Origin: a virus
IMG/VR virus record: IMGVR_UViG_3300044591_002222
Location: 1-30,612 of that record
DNA: 30,612 nt
Strand: one strand, 5' to 3'
In this document: piece after piece, positions 1-30,361 of the stretch
How the letters are laid out: each line of letters starts with the position of its first letter
Position numbering within the stretch: position 1 is the stretch's first letter
The notes under the pieces: model-generated
Database searches by the model: none
Seen by the model: the letters and a program-made list of their open reading frames with translations, nothing else
Told to the model about the DNA's origin: nothing
Program-made: the position numbers and the translations under genes

Positions 1-3000
1 GACGTTATTCCTGATTCAGATTTAGATGTGATTTGAGTATCTGCAAAATTTTTCAATCCACTGGTATGAAGTAAATTATTTACTGATGTTTTGAAGTTAT
101 CATATTCAATAGGACTTTTTATAGTATATGAAAGATTTTGGTAATAATCATTATCGGAAATTGACTGCGTATCTTGGTTTAATTTTCCAATATTATTTGA
201 CCAACCATTCTTCCTATCTATTGCATAATCAATTTCAAATCTTCCCAAATTTGGTTCTATTTTACTTATTTTTGCAATATTTCCAGATTCCTTTCCTACA
301 ATAACCTCACCTAAAGATAAATTATAAGTACCATACACTTTAATAAAATTATTTTCATAATTTGAGATGACTAAATCTCTTTCTATTCCATCAGAAATAA
401 TTTTTTCCCCAATTCTAAAATAAGATATTTTTTGTATAACTTCAAATTTGGGATAGTTATTGTAATTTATAATATTTCCAACCGAATCTTGAATAGTTTT
501 TGCTATTCCAGTATTTGTTGTTAGACCCGAAATATTAAATGTAACCCTATCAAGAATTCCGGAAGAATTATCATAATCACTGACGGTAAAAAATTCATAA
601 TTATAATCTTCAGAATTGAATCCTGTTCCAGTGGAACTTTGTTTTTGTATTCCTTCAACAAAAACTTTATCACCAATATTAAATGGATATGTACTAAATC
701 CAAAACTTGGGGTAGTTATTGCACATGTAAAAATTCCACTAGAAGATGATTCAACCTTTTGAATACTAGTACCATTGGTATTATTTGTAGCAAATAATTT
801 TACAATTGTTGATGGCAATCCTTTTGGTTCTTGAATAATCTTTAAAGAATTAATTGAACTTCCCGATAAAGTTGCTTCTAAAATTCCACTATCTATCTTC
901 TCTCCTGTTTCAGAGTTTACAATTACAATAGAAGGAGGATTTATGTAATTTTTGCCCCCATCTAAGACATTAATTTCAGAAATTGTATTTGAATTTTCAA
1001 TTGTAATTAGTGGTGATATATAAGCATTCGGCCGTAAAGTTTTGTCACAAGAATATTCAAAACCTTCATTAATGATTCTAACTTCTTTTGGATATCCTAT
1101 TGTTTTTGATTTTGGAATAGCATAGATACCTTTTCCATCTTCAGAATTAGACCCAGAAAGTGATGGAAGTTTTTTATATCCAGTTCCTCCAGAAATAATA
1201 TTAATTTTATCAATAGGTCCTTTTGCTGATGTAGAAGTTGTTGAATATTCTAGAACACTACATTCAGACTGAGAATATGTTAATTTTTCTGGAGTTTTAT
1301 TCAATGTAATATTAAAAGTTGTTGTTCCCACACCAAAGATAGAATGGGTGTCAGTGTATTGACTATCTACAAATAATATTTCTGAATAATTACTTACGTC
1401 TTTATCTGAAGTACTTATATAACCAGACTTTTCTAAATTATAATATAATTTAGTTGGTAAATTTTCATCATATTTGATGGTTATTGATGCAGTTGAGGAT
1501 ACTCCTACAGTTCCTACACCAATTAATGTAAATCCTGTAGTTTTGGCAGTAGAAACGAATTCATTTTTGAACTCCTGATCATAATAAATTTTAAATTTAT
1601 AACCAGATAAAGAAGAATCTGACAGATTAAATACTAAATTATTGCTCTTAACTGATTTTATTTGTGGATTTATCAATGAAATATTTTGATATTTTCCACC
1701 AGTACCTGCAATACTTACTACTATTGGTGGATTAACTTTGGAATCAATATATGTCTCAGAAAGTTTAATCTTGTTGTTATCAACTTTATATACAAAGTAC
1801 GATCCCGTAGATAGTCCTGATGCAATTAAATCTGTTGATGAATAGTAAATTTTATCTCCAGTATTTAAGTTATGGGAATTAATTGTGATAGTATTTGTTT
1901 GTGTACTAATACCAGTTGAGTTGAATCCAATCGGATTTATAAAAATTGTATTATCAATTGAGTTTCTTTTAACATAAACTGAAGTTGAAGTACCAATACC
2001 AACTGATAGATTTGGTATAACGGTCAGATTAATTAAATCTCCATTAGTTAAATTATGGGAAGTGGAAACTGAAACAGTAGATTTGATTTTTTCTATATTG
2101 CCAATTACTTGATCATAACTACTACTGAAAGAATATTCATCATTATTGGCATCATTAATACTTGTGAAAAATACTTCTGCAGAATTTATACTAGTTTTGA
2201 TTCCTATTGTATTTTTATTTTTGTTTACAATATATACCAGTTGAGAATTTCCAGAACTTGGAAAACTAACTGCATCTGCGGGATCAGATGTAGTTGATAT
2301 AGAAAATTGAGGAGTACCTGTAGGTTTTTCAAAAATAACTTTTTGATTATCTTTAAACGGATGATTTTCAATATAAATTCCTTTTGTTGGAATTATTCTA
2401 GTTATTGAAGAAACTCCAAAACTAAAAGTTATAGAACTTGTAACTCCAATATTAGTACCAACTCCAATACTTTCTTTTGGATTAAAATAAACTTTATCGG
2501 TTGGATATGAATTGAAATAATCAGTATTTTTTGTAAGTGTAAAATAATCTGGTAAGAAATTTATTTGTGTTGTTGCAGTATGAGATACTCCAGTTGAACC
2601 TCTTTGGACCTTTAAAATATTTAAACTTTTAAATACTTCTAAAACTTTTAATGTTTCAGAACCAATAACAATGCTACTTCCAACTGATATTGGTTCTGAA
2701 GGTAATTGGGATACGTAAATTTCAGTAGAATATCCTACCGTTGATGAAGTTATCGAAGAAATGCAAGAAGATGAATATGAAGTAACTCCTATTTGGTATG
2801 ATCCATTCAATTGACTTAGATTAGTAGAAAGTCCAGAAATTGTAACATAATCTTTATTGGATAATGTATGATATGGACTGATAAACGCCTTTATTTCTCT
2901 TCCATTCTTCCAACTAAAAACTACATTATCATAAGTTTGCACTAAAGTATTGACATTTACAATCTCTTTTCCTTTTATTGAGGATACTTTTACAATTAAT

Positions 3001-6000
3001 CCACCCCCAAATGTATCAGTATTATTAAAATCTAAAGAATCATTAATTTTATAATCCGATCCAGAATTTAAAATGTCAAAATTTTCTACAGATCCTTCCG
3101 TTACTGATTCAATAACCGATTTTTGATTTGATAATTCATTTGACTCTATTATAAAATCATTAGACGCATATTTGTCAGAAATTTTATATGGAAAAGTATT
3201 TCTAAGTAATAGTGAATTATTAAAGTCAAATGATTGATTAAGATTAGAATTATCAATTATATAATTTGACCTATACTTGTTTCCAATAAAATATGGAAAT
3301 GTTGATACTAAAGTTTGACTTTCTAATGTAGCAAAATATGCATAAACTCCATTTGGAAATTCTGGAGTTTTTCCAAATCTTCCATTATATTCATCCAAAT
3401 TCCCAGAATTTTTATATTCATAATCTTCCAAAAAGAATCCATTTGCAAATCCATTTGGTCTATCCTCAATATTACCAATATTTAATTCATATCCAGATTT
3501 TAATACTTTTAGTGAAGAAGAAGAATTTTCTTCATCTTCATATCCATAAGGTCCATATATTGGATTACCATCATAAGACCATCCAATAATTGGAGAATGA
3601 TTTAATCCAACATCGTTAAAGGAATTTCTAAGAGTATTAAAGTATCCAGAAACAGAATACTTTAACTTACCTCCCTCTTCAAGTAATAATTCATCCCCAA
3701 ATTTCTTGTTATTATTTACGGTCAAACTTCTAACTCTAGATTCTAGAAGTGCATTAATGCCAGAAGATTTTACCAAAATAGTTGTAGAAGTTGAATATCC
3801 TATTCCAGGATTAGTAATTTCTACCGAAGTTATTTTTCCATTTGCTATTACTGGTCTTAATTCTGCACCTACTCCAGAATTAGTGGGATCTGTTATAATT
3901 AAATCCGGAACAGAATAGTAATCATATCCACCATATTGGAGATTAATGGAATTTATTGATCCATTGACAATAACTGGTTTTACTTGAGCCTCTTTTCCAG
4001 TCTTTATGGTAATTAATGGTTTTTTATGAAAATTTAATACAGTTGATCCATAACCTGTACCACTTTCATACAAATAAGTATCAATAATACTTCCCCTAAC
4101 CACAGGAGTTGCTACAATAGTACTATAGTCACTAGAACTTTCTCTAGAGTAAGTTATTGAAACTGAAATATTTGGATATTTAAAATATTGATATCCAGAT
4201 CCTGTTGACAAAAATTTGACGTAATTTTTTCTATTATAGTTTGAAAGATTTGTACCTCCAATTCCAGCGTTAAATACTCTAAAAGAATTATCATTTAGTT
4301 TTGAAACATAATATTGATATGACGAAGAAAGTCCTACAATTGCTGTAGTCTGGTAATTATACTCAATAAGATCTCCCTCGTTAAATCCATGATTATCAAA
4401 ATTGATTGTGTGATTTGTGGTGGATATTCCTGTTGGTTTTACAATTAATTTTCTATTTTGATATCCCTCACCACCATCAATTACTTTAATTTCTGATATT
4501 GTTTTTTTATTTGGTACTGTTGTAAATTTATGAATCCCAGAAGTATATACCTCAGTAAATCCTACTGTGTTAATTCCAGAAGAGTAATCATAAAAAGATG
4601 GATATAATTTAATAGTATTATTACTTTCTTTTTTTATATAATATTCAGAATTGTTGGATAAAATTCTATTTTGGTCATTATTTGATCCTCCAAAATCACC
4701 AATACCGATTTCATTGTTTCCATTAGAATTGTAAATTACTCTATCACCACTATTTAAATTATGATTAGTTAAAAATGTTACAGTATCATTTTCATAATCT
4801 ACTCCACCAGATGGAGATAATCTTCCGTCAAAATAAATTTCACGATATCTTTTTTTCAAAATTGGTTCTAATACTGCCCCTTTACCGTTACCACCTTTTA
4901 CTTCAATTGATACGATGGAACTAATATCAAAATCTTGTGAATCTACGAATACCTTTTTAATATTTCCACTTAAAATTGGTTGAACTAATGCAGTTATTCC
5001 CAATCCAGCAGAGATTGTAACTAGTGGTGGATTTATAACATCATAGTTATCCCCACCATTCAAAACATTTACAGATGTTAAAGGACCATAATAAACTTTA
5101 TCGTTTGATTTGTAATTTTGAATCTCAACCCCATTGATTAACATTCCAACAGAACCTGGTTGAGTTAATTCTCCAGTTCCATTCTGAATATTTTGATTTA
5201 ATGGAAATTTCTTGAGTAATTTTTGGGCACCAATAATTTCAGATTTTTGTGTATATAATATAAATTTATGAGTATTTTGAGAATCAAAAGTTGAACTTAA
5301 ATAATTTATATAATTTTTACTACCAATAAATGATCTTGAATCATATAATTTGATTTTTTTATTATCTGCTTGAACCTCAACATAGTAAATTCCAGTTTCT
5401 AATCCAGAAATAACTGATGAACTTGGTTGATAATAAACTTTATCACCAGTAATAAATGGGACAGCACTACTAAAATTTATTGTACTATAATAATTTTCAT
5501 CAATTTTATCTGTTAACTGAAGAGCTATTGAAGATTTAGTATTTGCAGTTACATTATAAGTGTAAGGTCTTGATAAGTTTCTATTATTTGATGGAAAAGA
5601 ATTTGAAGCAACATATGCATAATCATCATTTTCATTATATACATTCAATACGTCAGATAAAATAACATCATTACCATATTCAATAGGAATTATTGAACTA
5701 CTTGCTTTATTAACTTTTCTTCTTAAATCATATTCTACATCATTATTGTACCAACCAGATAATGAAAAATCATTCAATTCAAGTGTTTTTAAATCATTAT
5801 CAATAGATTTAACATAAGGTACATTTGAACTCGTAGTTGGATATCTTACTATATTACTGTATCTTTCTACAATTTCAATAATATCTCCAACTTTTAAACT
5901 TGATTTATTGGTGATACTTTTGAGTATTGGTTTAGATCCATCAAAAGTTTCTATCTCATATCTTGAACTTGTATTGTAAATCCAAGAATTTGCAAAAATC

Positions 6001-7301
6001 TCTTTATAAGAATTCCCAGTATCTTCGATTATTTCTCCCAAAGTTTTTATTTGGACTTCATCCCCAACAGAAACTTTAAAATAATCAGATATTGGTACAA
6101 ATTCAGACAATACTCCAGTAATTCTAAATTCTACTTTTTTAGTAGTATCACCATTCTCATATCCAAAATAAATTTCATCAGATCTTATGTTATCAGCAGT
6201 ATTAATTTCCTCATCTATTCCAGTGCATCCTAAAAATTGATTAATTGTTTTATCTGTATAATTTATAGTATTATTACCAGATACAATAGTCCCAATTCCA
6301 GGAAATCCAATTGTAGAATCAACAGAAATAACGGATGATCCCACAGAAACATTTTCCAAGCATTTTGTATTTTGTGTGATAGTAAACTTTCCTTCAATTA
6401 CAGATCTTTCTTCATAACCGACAAAAAGAGAAATCTTATAATATTTTATAGTATTTTTAGAAAATATTTCTACTTCAGAAACTGATGCACTGGTAGTAGG
6501 ATCATTGGATTTAAAAATTGATTGTCCAACTAATTTTGATGGATCTCCAGAAATTCTTTCTGCAGAAATAACTTTTCTCCTTACATACTGTGCAGAAGAA
6601 GGTTTAATTAAAAAATCTTCTAAATTTACTACTTTTGGAGTTACGCCATAAAGAACATTGAATAAAATTCTAAAAGATTCCTCAGTACCTTTAGATTGAT
6701 AAAAAGATCTTGCATTTTTAATAAAGTTTCCTACATTTAAATCAGAAACAAAGTCTACATCCTCTAATCCTGGAGTTAAAGTATATTTTAATTTTTTGTA
6801 AAATTCTGTTAAAAATAATGAACTTAAATTCTGTACTGAAGATCCTAAGGTATGTGTTGAAGATTTGGAAGTAGAAAATACTAATTCTTCCTGATTTGAT
6901 ACTGCATGATAAGAAGTAATGCCACTAAATCCGCGAACACATCCAGTAAAAGTGTTAGTAGTAATTCCGGTATAAGTAATAATTTCATCATCAATTTTAA
7001 TCAGACCATATTTTTGAGGAAATCCTTTTGTACTTGTTACTGTGATAATTCCAGTTGTAGAATCAATATTTGCGCTAAGACCAACATTACCTACAACAAC
7101 TTCTGAGGTTAAATTATCTAATTTTAAATATTGATCTAAATTTTCTGCAATATCTACAGGACCACCTTGATATTCCTGAGAAATATAATATTGCTTCAAA
7201 AATTCTGAAGCTTTGGGACTTTCATCCAGTATAAATTCTGGAAGTTGATTGTCAATTATTTGTTGTATTTTGACTCTAGACTCAAATCCCGTTTGTATCA
7301 T
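1..7301 (-). CDS. Giant repetitive virion protein, probable baseplate wedge (3' end outside window)
   Basis: An open frame of at least 2,433 codons starts with ATG at 7301, 4 nt after the gp6 stop, and runs off the left edge with no stop. I checked the frame at its start, at about 3.0 kb and at the left edge. The protein begins MIQTGFESRVKIQQIIDNQ and is rich in Ser, Asn, Ile and Thr. It repeats a short beta-type pattern resembling G-G-x-x-Y-x-x-P-P-x-V-x-I, for example near 950 (DGGKNYINPPSIVIV), near 3.9 kb (YGGYDYYSVPDLIIT) and near 5.05 kb (NGGDNYDVINPPLVTI). Its place directly after gp6 matches the very large structural protein found there in T4-like cyanophages. By position it may replace T4 gp7, but it is more than twice that length. 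The baseplate role is inferred from position, and the complete length is unknown. Confidence 0.85.
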   Translation of the reverse strand, partial: MIQTGFESRVKIQQIIDNQLPEFILDESPKASEFLKQYYISQEYQGGPVDIAENLDQYLKLDNLTSEVVVGNVGLSANIDSTTGIITVTSTKGFPQKYGLIKIDDEIITYTGITTNTFTGCVRGFSGITSYHAVSNQEELVFSTSKSSTHTLGSSVQNLSSLFLTEFYKKLKYTLTPGLEDVDFVSDLNVGNFIKNARSFYQSKGTEESFRILFNVLYGVTPKVVNLEDFLIKPSSAQYVRRKVISAERISGDPSKLVGQSIFKSNDPTTSASVSEVEIFSKNTIKYYKISLFVGYEERSVIEGKFTITQNTKCLENVSVGSSVISVDSTIGFPGIGTIVSGNNTINYTDKTINQFLGCTGIDEEINTADNIRSDEIYFGYENGDTTKKVEFRITGVLSEFVPISDYFKVSVGDEVQIKTLGEIIEDTGNSYKEIFANSWIYNTSSRYEIETFDGSKPILKSITNKSSLKVGDIIEIVERYSNIVRYPTTSSNVPYVKSIDNDLKTLELNDFSLSGWYNNDVEYDLRRKVNKASSSIIPIEYGNDVILSDVLNVYNENDDYAYVASNSFPSNNRNLSRPYTYNVTANTKSSIALQLTDKIDENYYSTINFSSAVPFITGDKVYYQPSSSVISGLETGIYYVEVQADNKKIKLYDSRSFIGSKNYINYLSSTFDSQNTHKFILYTQKSEIIGAQKLLKKFPLNQNIQNGTGELTQPGSVGMLINGVEIQNYKSNDKVYYGPLTSVNVLNGGDNYDVINPPLVTISAGLGITALVQPILSGNIKKVFVDSQDFDISSIVSIEVKGGNGKGAVLEPILKKRYREIYFDGRLSPSGGVDYENDTVTFLTNHNLNSGDRVIYNSNGNNEIGIGDFGGSNNDQNRILSNNSEYYIKKESNNTIKLYPSFYDYSSGINTVGFTEVYTSGIHKFTTVPNKKTISEIKVIDGGEGYQNRKLIVKPTGISTTNHTINFDNHGFNEGDLIEYNYQTTAIVGLSSSYQYYVSKLNDNSFRVFNAGIGGTNLSNYNRKNYVKFLSTGSGYQYFKYPNISVSITYSRESSSDYSTIVATPVVRGSIIDTYLYESGTGYGSTVLNFHKKPLITIKTGKEAQVKPVIVNGSINSINLQYGGYDYYSVPDLIITDPTNSGVGAELRPVIANGKITSVEITNPGIGYSTSTTILVKSSGINALLESRVRSLTVNNNKKFGDELLLEEGGKLKYSVSGYFNTLRNSFNDVGLNHSPIIGWSYDGNPIYGPYGYEDEENSSSSLKVLKSGYELNIGNIEDRPNGFANGFFLEDYEYKNSGNLDEYNGRFGKTPEFPNGVYAYFATLESQTLVSTFPYFIGNKYRSNYIIDNSNLNQSFDFNNSLLLRNTFPYKISDKYASNDFIIESNELSNQKSVIESVTEGSVENFDILNSGSDYKINDSLDFNNTDTFGGGLIVKVSSIKGKEIVNVNTLVQTYDNVVFSWKNGREIKAFISPYHTLSNKDYVTISGLSTNLSQLNGSYQIGVTSYSSSCISSITSSTVGYSTEIYVSQLPSEPISVGSSIVIGSETLKVLEVFKSLNILKVQRGSTGVSHTATTQINFLPDYFTLTKNTDYFNSYPTDKVYFNPKESIGVGTNIGVTSSITFSFGVSSITRIIPTKGIYIENHPFKDNQKVIFEKPTGTPQFSISTTSDPADAVSFPSSGNSQLVYIVNKNKNTIGIKTSINSAEVFFTSINDANNDEYSFSSSYDQVIGNIEKIKSTVSVSTSHNLTNGDLINLTVIPNLSVGIGTSTSVYVKRNSIDNTIFINPIGFNSTGISTQTNTITINSHNLNTGDKIYYSSTDLIASGLSTGSYFVYKVDNNKIKLSETYIDSKVNPPIVVSIAGTGGKYQNISLINPQIKSVKSNNLVFNLSDSSLSGYKFKIYYDQEFKNEFVSTAKTTGFTLIGVGTVGVSSTASITIKYDENLPTKLYYNLEKSGYISTSDKDVSNYSEILFVDSQYTDTHSIFGVGTTTFNITLNKTPEKLTYSQSECSVLEYSTTSTSAKGPIDKINIISGGTGYKKLPSLSGSNSEDGKGIYAIPKSKTIGYPKEVRIINEGFEYSCDKTLRPNAYISPLITIENSNTISEINVLDGGKNYINPPSIVIVNSETGEKIDSGILEATLSGSSINSLKIIQEPKGLPSTIVKLFATNNTNGTSIQKVESSSSGIFTCAITTPSFGFSTYPFNIGDKVFVEGIQKQSSTGTGFNSEDYNYEFFTVSDYDNSSGILDRVTFNISGLTTNTGIAKTIQDSVGNIINYNNYPKFEVIQKISYFRIGEKIISDGIERDLVISNYENNFIKVYGTYNLSLGEVIVGKESGNIAKISKIEPNLGRFEIDYAIDRKNGWSNNIGKLNQDTQSISDNDYYQNLSYTIKSPIEYDNFKTSVNNLLHTSGLKNFADTQITSKSESGIT

Positions 7302-23133: not shown

Positions 23134-23191
23134 AGTCTAATGGCACCCAGGTGAATCTGGATGCCTTGTGTGCCAGTTGTCAGACTGTCAC
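23134..23191 (-). promoter_or_regulatory. Palindrome-type promoter module (copy 9)
   Basis: The palindrome at 23170-23191 (halves GTGCCAGTT and GACTGTCAC) overlaps the stop of the gene ending at 23188. A hairpin GGCACCCAG / CTGGATGCC lies at 23142-23165. The -10 candidate is TAGACT at 23134-23139, 30 bp from the palindrome. Confidence 0.7.
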
Positions 23192-23592
23192 TTGTTCATC
23201 TGTAGAGTTGGAACTGGCATACCACCTTCGGTAGGAACATAGATGGTTACGTTACCATTCTTGCTACCATCTTCCAGACCAGTGATGTAAAGATACTGCA
23301 GATACTCACGGTTGTCTTTCAAAGAATTACCAATGATTTGATTTGCTTTTGCGACACCAGTGGCACGAATCACCTCAGCATCAGCAAGTTGTTGTGCAGA
23401 ATCTTTCTTTGCTTGTGCTTCCAGAACTGCAACCTGGCGAGTGTATTCTGCTTTCTGAAGTTCTGCTTTACCTTGCAGAGATTGCGCCCACACATTATAA
23501 AGAGGGCCAACCACTGCATTGATAATCATCAGACTCAAAAGAAAAGAAACGCCAATGATGCCAGCGTTGCGAAGAGTGTTATCAGGTTTCAT
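23188..23592 (-). CDS. SPFH/prohibitin-tail-like membrane protein, 134 aa
   Basis: A transmembrane helix at about residues 10-30 (GIIGVSFLLSLMIINAVVGP) is followed by a long coiled coil (AELQKAEYTRQVAVLEAQAK; QLADAEVIRATGVAKANQII) and a tail YLQYLYITGLE..VTIYVPTEGG. The coiled coil and tail closely match the C-terminal half of prohibitin/HflC-type SPFH proteins (A-E-x-I-R-A-x-G-x-A-x-A-N-x-I-I; I-Y-V-P-T-E). The SPFH domain itself is missing, so this is a short form. It may join or disturb host SPFH complexes and membrane proteolysis (inference). It lies in an envelope-protein cluster. Confidence 0.8.
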   Translation of the reverse strand: MKPDNTLRNAGIIGVSFLLSLMIINAVVGPLYNVWAQSLQGKAELQKAEYTRQVAVLEAQAKKDSAQQLADAEVIRATGVAKANQIIGNSLKDNREYLQYLYITGLEDGSKNGNVTIYVPTEGGMPVPTLQMNK

Positions 23593-23611: not shown

Positions 23612-24034
23612 TCAGGGAGTAATCCAATCGTAACCATCAGGTTCTTTAACAGTCTCAAATCCATCATATTCATCAATACGATAAGGACCAGAGACTTCTT
23701 CAATAGCAAGTTTAGCACACATTCCGTTTGCTTTGTCACCCAGTTCTTCTACAACTTGAGCAAGAATAGGATCGTGACGGGAAATATTATGGTCACTCCA
23801 AGTTTGTTCGGAATGCTTTTTGTTGTAAGCAATTCGTTCTTCAATTGGAGCAGAATACCAGGGTTCTGGTTTTGTAAGACGTTCTTCGGGTGGAACCAAC
23901 CAAACGGTGAACATATCCATGAAGTCACCATTTTCAATCCAAACTTCTTTGCCTTGAAGTTCCCAGTAACGCTTACATGCTTCACGGGACAGATTGAACC
24001 CACCGTAGCAGGCATTATAAACAACTTTAGTCAT
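23612..24034 (-). CDS. Conserved hypothetical protein, 140 aa
   Basis: Start at ATG 24034 (MTKVVYNACYGGFNLSREAC); the TTG two codons upstream is less likely. The opening Y-N-A-C-Y-G-G-F-x-L-S and the ending G-P-Y-R-I-D-E-Y-D-G-x-E-x-V match a widespread phage and bacterial family of unknown function. It is soluble, with no known catalytic motif. The start is 2 nt after the lipoprotein gene's stop. Confidence 0.85.
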   Translation of the reverse strand: MTKVVYNACYGGFNLSREACKRYWELQGKEVWIENGDFMDMFTVWLVPPEERLTKPEPWYSAPIEERIAYNKKHSEQTWSDHNISRHDPILAQVVEELGDKANGMCAKLAIEEVSGPYRIDEYDGFETVKEPDGYDWITP

Positions 24035-24036
24035 AA

Positions 24037-24522
24037 TCAAAGTTTGAAAGGAGAAACAATAATACGGGGTTCAACATAAACAGGACGGGTTTTGCCACTA
24101 CCATCAGGATCAGAACACAACACCCAAGTTCCTTCAGCACTGGAAGGAGAGAACAGACCATTAGGATCTGCCTGTGGAAGAGTCGTGCCAGTGTATTCAT
24201 ATTTCTCAGGATTCGTGTATTGAGTAGCAGCAGGAAGACCATAACCGATAGAGTTGCACAGAAACACTGGACGACCAGTAGTTTCAGGAACAGTGTAAGT
24301 ATAAGTCACCAGACCATCCTGATCACGCATTTCAATAATCTGCTTCAGCAACTTACGTTCACGGAAGTTCTTGATAGCAGGCATACCAGTCTGTGCCGTG
24401 CCTTCTTGTAGAATGCGTTCTTGTTGTGCTCGTTGCTTATCATCAGAATCTCCATATTCATCACACCCAACAAGAGTTACGCTCAGAAGTGCGATTGAAG
24501 CAAGAGCAATAAAAGGTTTCAT
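24037..24522 (-). CDS. Putative lipoprotein, 161 aa
   Basis: The signal sequence MKPFIALASIALLSVTLVGC has a lipobox (LVGC) with Cys20 as the acylation site, so it is likely exported and anchored to a membrane by lipid. The body contains NFRERKLLKQIIEMRDQDGL, FLCNSIGYGLPAATQYTNPE and ADPNGLFSPSSAEGTWVLC, segments I recall as conserved in a family found in phages and bacteria. The conserved GLP and NPE segments are typical. It follows the small membrane gene at 24525 with a 2-nt gap. Confidence 0.85.
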   Translation of the reverse strand: MKPFIALASIALLSVTLVGCDEYGDSDDKQRAQQERILQEGTAQTGMPAIKNFRERKLLKQIIEMRDQDGLVTYTYTVPETTGRPVFLCNSIGYGLPAATQYTNPEKYEYTGTTLPQADPNGLFSPSSAEGTWVLCSDPDGSGKTRPVYVEPRIIVSPFKL

Positions 24523-24524
24523 AA

Positions 24525-24842
24525 TCAGTTAGGAAGATTGGAGATGAATGATTGGAGGTCGGTAGGCATGGCATCAGCAGGAACTTCTACAGCACGATGA
24601 CGAATTACATCGGCAAGTGCTTTCTTATGTTCAGGTGATGCTTTGATGTATTCAAACTGCATATTTTGCAGTTCTTGAACAGCACCAGTTCGGAAGGATT
24701 TTGACTGTTCAAAAGTGTTCCTACGAACATTCTCAAACTTAGGAGCAAAGAATGACGTAAAAATCAGTTCGTGATAGGTAAGACCCCAGGCAAGGGCACC
24801 AACACCAACAACACCGCCGACAATAGCAAGAATAGGTTTCAT
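24525..24842 (-). CDS. Membrane-anchored protein, 105 aa
   Basis: One N-terminal transmembrane or signal-anchor helix (LAIVGGVVGVGALAWGLTYH, about residues 4-24), then a soluble helical domain (KFENVRRNTFEQSKSFRTGA; EHKKALADVIRHRAVEVPAD). It resembles a phage family that travels with the lipoprotein next to it. It is probably anchored in the inner membrane with the helical domain outside. Function unknown. Confidence 0.8.
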   Translation of the reverse strand: MKPILAIVGGVVGVGALAWGLTYHELIFTSFFAPKFENVRRNTFEQSKSFRTGAVQELQNMQFEYIKASPEHKKALADVIRHRAVEVPADAMPTDLQSFISNLPN

Positions 24843-24843
24843 A

Positions 24844-25035
24844 TCAATTATAAGTGCAGAGTTGTGTCATTCTACCATACTGGATGCCTTCAGACCATTT
24901 GCCTCCAGCATTCATACACGCTTGTTTTGAAGGAAGAATAGAGTTGCCAGTAGCAATACTAAACAAAGCAGCACATCCAATACCAGCAATAGCAACAACA
25001 ATCATCAGTTCAACAAGAGTGAATCCGTTTTTCAT
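24844..25035 (-). CDS. Type IV prepilin-like protein, 63 aa
   Basis: The N-terminus MKNGFTLVELMIVVAIAGIG is a complete prepilin motif: G4 is the cleavage position, F5 the N-methylated residue and E9 the +5 Glu, followed by a hydrophobic helix. Host prepilin peptidase PilD should process it. The rest is very short, with Cys40 and Cys60 that could form a pilin-type disulfide. It is far smaller than a major pilin, so it looks like a minor pseudopilin. It overlaps the membrane gene at 25032 by 4 nt. It may block or alter host pili or competence, a possible superinfection block (inference). Confidence 0.85.
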   Translation of the reverse strand: MKNGFTLVELMIVVAIAGIGCAALFSIATGNSILPSKQACMNAGGKWSEGIQYGRMTQLCTYN

Positions 25036-25220
25036 TTGGAAGAAACGTTAGTTTTGAAAATAAGATTGGCAAGAAAGATAATAGCAAAGTTCTGCCAGAA
25101 GGACAAGGATACACCAAACCAAGACAGAATCAGTCCAAGCAATGCTGCTTCAAAGAATAGTCCAGCAACAGCAATTACAATGACACCAAAAGCAAAACCA
25201 AGAGCAGTAGAAGTTTTCAT
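25032..25220 (-). CDS. Small membrane protein, 62 aa
   Basis: Two hydrophobic helices (LGFAFGVIVIAVAGLFFEAA and LGLILSWFGVSLSFWQNFAI) and a short tail. The C-terminal FKTNVSSK is a pattern I recall in a family seen near phage lipoprotein and pilin-like genes. 4-nt overlap with the prepilin-like gene suggests joint function in the envelope. Confidence 0.8.
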   Translation of the reverse strand: MKTSTALGFAFGVIVIAVAGLFFEAALLGLILSWFGVSLSFWQNFAIIFLANLIFKTNVSSK

Positions 25221-29136: not shown

Positions 29137-29496
29137 TTAATCCCATGATACGTTTTGAAGAAGAAATCCAGGCATCACATAGGTCCATCCAGTAGCGCCA
29201 GGTTTATAATCCCACTTATATTCGTATTTATTATGAGAATCCCAAGTCATATAACCTTTTTCTTTATCAAATCGTCCTTTGATCGTCAGACTAAATTTGT
29301 TAGAGAAAATATTACGAGTGCGAAGAGCACCACTTGATTCTCTGGTTTCCACAACCTTACAAACATCTGATATGAATTCAGTCGGTGTTTCTAATGTACA
29401 AGAAGTCTCATACATGAAAGGGCGATAGATTTTTTGTTGTTGTGCAAATACTGGATTTGCAAGAAAAATTGTAGCAAAAAGAATTAGTTTTTTCAT
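29137..29496 (-). CDS. Exported protein, 119 aa
   Basis: Start at ATG 29496 (MKKLILFATIFLANPVFAQQ), with a clear Sec signal peptide and a predicted A-x-A-type cut after FA. The mature part is beta-rich, with two Cys (TSCTLETPTEFISDVCK) that could form a disulfide, and aromatic repeats (YKWDYKPGATGWTYVMP). It overlaps the RlpA-like gene by 1 nt, so the two are probably co-expressed in the envelope. Confidence 0.8.
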   Translation of the reverse strand: MKKLILFATIFLANPVFAQQQKIYRPFMYETSCTLETPTEFISDVCKVVETRESSGALRTRNIFSNKFSLTIKGRFDKEKGYMTWDSHNKYEYKWDYKPGATGWTYVMPGFLLQNVSWD

Positions 29497-29810
29497 CAGA
29501 TGACTCTCCAACAAACAGTAGCGTTTCCCTTACTCGTAGAAGAAATATGAGCAAAGGCAGCATAACTAAGATCCAGATCAGCATGAGAATATGGACCACG
29601 ATCATTGACCCGAACAATGACTTGTTTTCCGTTGTTTTGGTTCGTTACCCTAATTTTACTACCCATAGGTAGATAAGGGTGAGCTGCAGTCCAACGATAA
29701 GCATCAAACCGCTCACCGTTAGCAGTTGTTTGTCCATGAAATCCGTCTCCTACTCCATAAAATGTGGCGATACCGCAGGCAAGTCCAGCAATAAGTGTTT
29801 CAACCATCAT
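29496..29810 (-). CDS. RlpA-like double-psi beta-barrel protein, 104 aa
   Basis: The whole protein matches the RlpA double-psi beta-barrel: GIATFYGVGDGFHGQTTANG, then E-R-F-D and TAAHPYLPMGSKIRVTNQNN, then GKQVIVRVNDRGPY and DLDLSYAAF. The H of AAH and the D of NDRGP are positioned as in RlpA-type lytic transglycosylases. There is no peptidoglycan-binding SPOR domain. A short hydrophobic start (METLIAGLACG) could be a weak signal. It may loosen peptidoglycan during lysis or entry; inference. Confidence 0.85.
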   Translation of the reverse strand: MMVETLIAGLACGIATFYGVGDGFHGQTTANGERFDAYRWTAAHPYLPMGSKIRVTNQNNGKQVIVRVNDRGPYSHADLDLSYAAFAHISSTSKGNATVCWRVI

Positions 29811-29883: not shown

Positions 29884-29941
29884 ATTATACTACCTGCATC
29901 AGGCGATTGGGGAACGAGTGTGCCACTTTAGGAACTGGCAC
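29884..29941 (-). promoter_or_regulatory. Palindrome-type promoter module (copy 12)
   Basis: The palindrome at 29920-29941 (halves GTGCCACTT and AACTGGCAC) lies inside the 3' end of the metalloprotease gene. A perfect TATAAT at 29884-29889 is 30 bp away, overlapping that gene's stop, and 73 nt upstream of the ATG at 29810. Confidence 0.75.
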
Positions 29942-30361
29942 ACCTTGTTTCTCAATTAAGTACTCCAGATATAGTGTTTCTTCTTGTTCCCGTGCTTCAA
30001 TTTCGTGTGGTTGATGCCAATAGTCATACCTTTCAACAGGTTCTTTAGAATAACACAATTTTCCATATCGGATCCGCAGAGAACCGACTACCCACTGCCG
30101 CAGGTGGACCAGTTCGTGTAAAAGAGTTTTTATATACAACTCCTCACACATATAGGTGTTGAGTTCAATCAAAAACTCACGAGGACGATAAGATTCTCCC
30201 ACATAGTCACAGTAACCATAAACTTGCTCACGACGCAGACCACGGTGACGAATCTCCACCTCAATCTTATGGCGTGGAAGGAACTTATTCAGAAACCAAG
30301 TGGTAACATCCTGGCAGGTACGTTTAGAGTAACCATATCCAGACATTTCAAAGTAAGACAT
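29885..30361 (-). CDS. SprT-like zinc metalloprotease, 158 aa
   Basis: The zinc-binding motif is H82-E83-x2-H86 in TLLHELVHLRQWVVG, with the usual preceding helix. Further on, YWHQPHEIEAREQEETLYLE gives a third ligand candidate and the Glu-rich helix seen in SprT-like proteins. The N-terminus (TTWFLNKFLPRHKIEVEIRH) is a typical helix and strand. It may be a protease acting on DNA-protein links or host proteins; substrate unknown. The 3' end codes through palindrome copy 12. Confidence 0.75.
   Translation of the reverse strand: MSYFEMSGYGYSKRTCQDVTTWFLNKFLPRHKIEVEIRHRGLRREQVYGYCDYVGESYRPREFLIELNTYMCEELYIKTLLHELVHLRQWVVGSLRIRYGKLCYSKEPVERYDYWHQPHEIEAREQEETLYLEYLIEKQGVPVPKVAHSFPNRLMQVV

Follow-up and report, generated by a model that had tools for sequence, protein, structure and literature searches.

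A minimal prepilin-like protein family of cyanophages, under purifying selection and encoded near SPFH-type genes

The window analysed here is one entire IMG/VR viral contig of 30,612 bases. Positions 24844..25035 on its minus strand encode a 63-aa prepilin-like class III (type IV) micro-protein, hereafter the micropilin, identified on the basis of its ORF translation, profile matches, selection and an AF2 model. The ORF begins with ATG, and its translation (MKNGFTLVELMIVVAIAGIGCAALFSIATGNSILPSKQACMNAGGKWSEGIQYGRMTQLCTYN) is exactly that given in an earlier note on this DNA, which had claimed a full class III start, two late cysteines and a 4-nt overlap with a small membrane gene; all three are present. 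The start carries G4, F5 and E9, the last being E5 of the mature chain, and the predicted cleavage after G4 would leave F5 as the mature N-terminus. This is the class III arrangement: an N_methyl motif with glycine at -1, phenylalanine or tyrosine at +1 and glutamate at +5, and a hydrophobic helix after it. The protein scores above the curated cut-offs of both Pfam N_methyl PF07963 (33.3 bits against 21.2, E 3.2e-8) and NCBIfam TIGR02532 (IV_pilin_GFxxxE; 26.6 bits against 16.3). The late cysteines are C40 and C60, and a third, C21, lies inside the transmembrane helix.

The upstream gene (25032..25220, minus strand) encodes a small membrane protein of 62 aa, shares bases 25032-25035, at its stop, with the micropilin start and adjoins the prepilin in many relatives; the two genes may be translationally coupled. 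Next downstream, on the same strand, are a 105-aa protein with an N-terminal hydrophobic segment (24525..24842), kept in Synechococcus phage S-SRM01 (gp137) and several relatives; a predicted lipoprotein of 161 aa (24037..24522; phrog_24725), whose LVGC lipobox is read directly; a 142-aa cassette protein (23612..24040), whose listed ORF opens at TTG, a later ATG start being likelier; and a 134-aa transmembrane protein (23188..23592) related to the C-terminal part of the SPFH family phrog_200 and also to phrog_11227 ('protease'). Other members carry in place of this last gene a full SPFH/Band_7 protein of 270 aa. Farther upstream, on the same strand as the prepilin, are genes for a DPBB/RlpA-like protein (29496-29810; Pfam 1e-22) and a SprT-like protein (29885-30361); a SprT gene is also found near the SPFH gene of Aeromonas phage Ah1 (L104).

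The AF2 model of the micropilin, of modest confidence (pLDDT 74, pTM 0.36), consists of a helix at residues 7-28, a short helix at 37-42 and a hairpin at 46-52/55-61. In a type IVa pilin, a protein of about 120-160 aa, the head comprises the C-terminal half of a long helix and a roughly four-stranded beta sheet. The modelled 63-aa chain, with one helix, one short helix and a two-strand hairpin, does not have the head of a type IVa major pilin. A Foldseek search of the model against the PDB found no structural relative, and nothing in Pfam, NCBIfam or the PDB sequences detectably matches the C-terminal part; weak 'baseplate wedge' matches to the C-terminus were seen.

The contig is T4-like, and its gp6 shares 67% identity with that of S-SRM01, the closest isolate found, which came from a Singapore reservoir. 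The marine setting proposed in the earlier note is thus unsupported, and the nearest isolate makes a freshwater origin look likelier than a marine one. Downstream of gp6, a single minus-strand ORF of at least 2433 aa (3-7301) runs off the contig end; the P-SSM2 gene at the equivalent place is annotated gp7 and spans 15.6 kb. A match to psbA or psbD is present in all five family records longer than 200 kb, in four of which the matching part is nearly identical; with a partial match in a sixth, the total is 6/34 contigs. The presence of these genes on the large contigs indicates that the viruses of the family are cyanophages. Baseplate genes such as gp6, on the same strand and contig as the micropilin, would fit a membrane component of the virion, or one associated with the tail, that is synthesised in prepilin form. 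We consider this very unlikely, given that the gene sits in a variable small-gene cassette of changing order outside the structural block, and we know of no phage virion part that needs prepilin processing.

Relatives of the micropilin were found on 42 viral contigs in IMG/VR besides the window. A protein scan of viral contigs returned 30 loci, 27 of them belonging to the family; an alignment scan returned 41 loci, and a second alignment scan likewise 41. The other three loci of the protein scan (L029-L031) come from other viruses and are ordinary, larger pilins, several to an operon and each about 150 aa long; we placed them outside the micropilin family. With the window counted, there are 30 unique family coding sequences, none of them from L027, L028 or L072, where the gene is cut or broken. 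The pattern [GS][FY]T[LI][VIF]EL occurs in 27/30 of these, and the same 27 keep E5. Of the remainder, L021 has lost G-1 and E5, although its C-terminal domain is retained and an SPFH gene still lies nearby, and L026 and L071 are without the class III N-terminal helix. A scan with PF07963 gave a match in 30/34 family contigs, always to one gene per contig, and above the cut-off in 28/34; there was none in L026, L028, L071 or L072. The earlier note had allowed that a single occurrence in one genome with no conserved neighbours would undo its reading; the 42 further contigs, and an SPFH-type neighbour kept in 30/34 loci, speak otherwise.

Outside this set, tblastn searches of 50,697 phage records with the whole prepilin, and with just its C-terminal half, turned up no genuine relative; all hits were brief chance matches at E values of 2 or worse. 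Exact peptide patterns, which could miss distant relatives, found no cellular relative in genome contigs; the sole match (L074) fell by chance within an out-of-frame ORF on a contig with no relation to the family. Some family loci are rearranged. In L071 (494-637) a natural deletion fuses the beginning of the membrane gene upstream, in frame, with the C-terminal part of the prepilin, and L072 (4860-5130) has the same type of joining deletion out of frame; both could be assembly errors. In the prepilin gene of G032, part of the helix is duplicated in tandem.

Selection was computed as pN/pS on 28 of the 30 unique sequences, with the motif-less L021 included and L026 and L071 left out for want of an N-terminal helix, because the 25-row set that fits the motif selects for it. 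In these 28 sequences pN/pS was 0.20 (0.13-0.33) over the seven motif residues G4-L10, 0.91 (0.78-1.03) over the rest of the transmembrane helix, which is nearly unconstrained, 0.44 in the linker and, in the C-terminal two-cysteine domain, 0.23 (0.18-0.28); the intervals are the 2.5-97.5% range of resampling and are rough, since the sequences are related by descent. Purifying selection is thus strong on the signal GF/Y-T-L/I-V/I-E-L, and because synonymous positions vary, the constraint acts on the protein. In pilins, E5 serves assembly. The contrast of 0.20 in the motif with 0.91 in the helix indicates that selection keeps the recognition motif and E5 and not a generic anchor; no other evidence argues as strongly that processing or pilin-type docking matters as this retention of motif and E5 beside a drifting helix. 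As L021, L026 and L071 are without an intact class III part, the C-terminal part may matter in some lineages.

These values also bear on whether the motif arose by chance or is what remains of a host pilin that was captured and is decaying. Small size and the broken or fused N-termini of L026, L071 and L072 are what decay might produce. Set against them are the 42 other contigs, the kept gene overlap and pN/pS of 0.20-0.23 in both functional parts, and the selection analysis refutes this explanation, which we regard as scarcely credible. A chance motif is excluded by the PF07963 and TIGR02532 matches, the contigs with relatives and purifying selection on the protein.

The earlier note had paired the prepilin with its small membrane neighbour. 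Among the 34 mapped loci the order of small neighbour genes shuffles; 17 have a small upstream gene that runs 4 nt into the prepilin start, and in 12 of these it is the membrane gene of the window type. The most constant neighbour is instead an SPFH/Band_7-type gene, found on the same strand and at most 2 kb downstream of the prepilin in 30/34 loci (29 from neighbourhood mapping, and L021 from a separate look). The full type (270 aa) matches Band_7 (2.6e-19) and phrog_200, and the short type (134 aa) phrog_11227/phrog_200. The exceptions are L019, L026, L056 and L057. L056 and L057 have an SPFH gene in the genome, about 7 kb from the prepilin; in L019 it is as if the gene had been deleted and its tail left, as an ORF downstream of the prepilin (6186-6302) ends in full-SPFH tail residues (..MDFLPGGLTG..). 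The short SPFH-type proteins of 134-135 aa (window 23188-23592, L005:1494-1901) have very different transmembrane N-termini and a constant C-terminal part, and those of S-PM2 and S-SZBM1 begin with ..QNGF[TA].., which resembles a prepilin start without E5. S-SRM01 (L032, NC_070963.1) has the same cassette, with an unannotated homologue of the window membrane ORF at 3759-3950 and, in the prepilin position, an unannotated hydrophobic membrane ORF of 28 aa (3947-4033).

The SPFH association suggests a different role, in which the class III helix would serve chiefly to hold the protein in the inner membrane and the C40-C60 hairpin would be a periplasmic partner or client of the SPFH protein; the role, in which pili would have no part, might lie in quality control of the membrane, the timing of lysis or superinfection resistance. 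We hold this to be a real possibility and the main rival to the reading we prefer, though we lean away from it. The proximity of the SPFH-type gene, the high conservation of the C-terminal part and the persistence of C-terminus and SPFH gene in the motif-less L021 all argue for it. Selection on G-F-T-L-x-E-L, E5 included, beside a near-neutral helix would be unexpected of a plain anchor; phages W12-W14 and S-CREM1 carry an SPFH gene without any N_methyl protein, and the prepilin and SPFH genes are apart in L056 and L057. Phages with SPFH and no N_methyl protein include K470, T5_ev219 and Miro.

Pilins are known from other cyanophages. An N_methyl protein was found in 2/10 cyanophage isolates searched (S-CAM7 and ACG-2014f; 8/10 lack one), and a full-size pilin of about 126 aa is present in 49 Synechococcus phage records, nearly all annotated 'pilin'; a phage-borne pilin as such is therefore not new. 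Like the micropilin, these marine proteins (phrog_3433 'pilin') are class III pilins of T4-like cyanophages, but they have a longer leader and a pilin-like body, and a check of S-CAM7 and one ACG-2014f record found no SPFH gene. The phrog_3433 match to the micropilin covers residues 2-22 only (E 7.8e-5), so that homology does not extend over the whole length, and the micropilin family is separate from the ACG-2014f and S-CAM7 pilins. A protein of 167-187 aa directly follows the marine pilin in both genomes (L117:2389-2952, L116:2551-3054), making the two a possible pair; after the ACG-2014f pilin it is phrog_3415 (one record tested).

These full-length pilins, together with the resemblance of the micropilin family to a trimmed pilin, might point to a working pilin or minor pilin that keeps the host pilus or competence running, or alters either for the benefit of the phage. 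With 59 mature residues and no pilin head, a C-terminal part unmatched in Pfam, NCBIfam and PDB sequences, and no cellular relative found by exact peptide patterns in genome contigs, such a role seems improbable. Type IVa pilins and geopilin PilA-N are not known to have a cysteine hairpin. Their N-terminal 25 residues match the micropilin (PDB 9egp, 7tgg, 2m7g), and the solved mature chains of geopilin PilA-N are similarly tiny; unlike the micropilin, they form the major filament subunit of a cell.

The reading we prefer, tentatively and at a probability of about 40%, is that the micropilin is a host-processed minimal type IV prepilin of the phage that acts at the pilus or competence platform. 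During infection it would enter the inner membrane, where the host prepilin peptidase (PilD) would cut after G4 to give a 59-aa mature chain: one helix with E5 and a small periplasmic hairpin, probably closed by a C40-C60 disulfide. The mature protein might then dock as a pilin or minor pilin into the host type IV pilus or competence platform and, having no normal pilin head, limit pilus function as a decoy or cap. The likely benefit would be superinfection exclusion or control of DNA uptake, and the protein may act alongside the SPFH protein of its cassette. The micropilin and its SPFH neighbour suggest a viral tool that tampers with the host pilus or inner membrane; the coupling could instead reflect a membrane or lysis function that has nothing to do with pili, and a pilus-platform role and an SPFH partnership can both be true. 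The phage proteins PfsE, Tip and Aqs1 are not known to be prepilins. The passages of PMC8764522 on these proteins describe them as acting on the type IV pilus machine to prevent superinfection, PfsE (Pf4), a tiny membrane protein, by blocking at PilC, and Tip (D3112) and Aqs1 (DMS3) by blocking PilB. By analogy, the micropilin may inhibit the type IV pilus through PilB or PilC.

A separate group of phages shows a similar layout. Table 3 of PMC1524935 (2006) gives an N-terminal methylation motif for 44RR2.8t ORF097c, beside the SPFH gene ORF098c, and for Aeh1 ORF040c, and the word 'pilin' is absent from the main text. These Aeromonas mini-proteins and the 49 Synechococcus phage records correct the view of the earlier note that a virus with a pilin is unusual; its prepilin-like start and gene overlap stand, and its marine setting is unsupported. 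ORF097c and its relatives (phrog_11263) are 72 aa long, begin with GFTLIELM and have cysteines at C40 and C58, and the 44RR protein sits between a Band_7 gene and a lipoprotein-like gene. They come from a different phage family and differ in neighbour order, and their C-terminal part is not detectably homologous to that of the cyanophage micropilin: the phrog_11263 match covers residues 3-42 only (E 8e-5), short of the whole length, and C-terminal homology was rejected, its score lying below the shuffle mean with 186/200 column shuffles equal or higher. The common layout is accordingly either convergent or very old.

The mini-prepilin adjoins SPFH in 6/6 44RR-type records inspected (44RR, phiAS4, 25, UP87, GomatiRiver_11 and avDM1), which favours an SPFH-linked envelope role, although these records are mutually related and represent few independent cases. 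The avDM1 protein ends differently and has no cysteine pair. The class III ORF of Aeh1 and Ah1 lies 12-14 kb from the SPFH gene (the Aeh1 ORF as read is 28 aa), a separation that gives no support for adjacency and counts against such a role. An N_methyl match was present in 8/12 records searched for this parallel; a Rhizobium phage hit (H155) had none.

What is new is the minimal phage-only prepilin family, its selection signature and its SPFH coupling. Within the scope searched, the portions consulted of the literature on phage pilins, cyanophage SPFH proteins, S-SRM01 and type IV pilus exclusion do not describe the family, and the passages searched in the S-SRM01 paper (PMC8557907) do not mention a pilin. 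A broader proposal, which we consider rather doubtful, is that at least two T4-like phage families independently built an envelope module of SPFH and a two-cysteine micropilin, often with a lipoprotein nearby, that would be processed by the host peptidase, assemble with SPFH in the inner membrane, and block or re-purpose the pilus or competence machine. A viral protein that retains just the residues recognised by the peptidase of the host would give the virus a direct hold on the type IV pilus. Cyanobacteria take up DNA by this pilus. It also keeps marine picocyanobacteria suspended and helps them evade grazers, according to PMC7994388. The recurring SPFH partnership in cyanophages and Aeromonas phages suggests a testable role for phage SPFH proteins, for which 44RR2.8t is an isolated phage carrying the SPFH and class III pair. 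In UP87 (L102, 2189-2644) and GomatiRiver_11 (L103, 2186-2644), about 77 extra in-frame residues precede the class III signal, and the ORFs are annotated as one protein of 151-152 aa; the extension is either an unusual leader or a wrong start.
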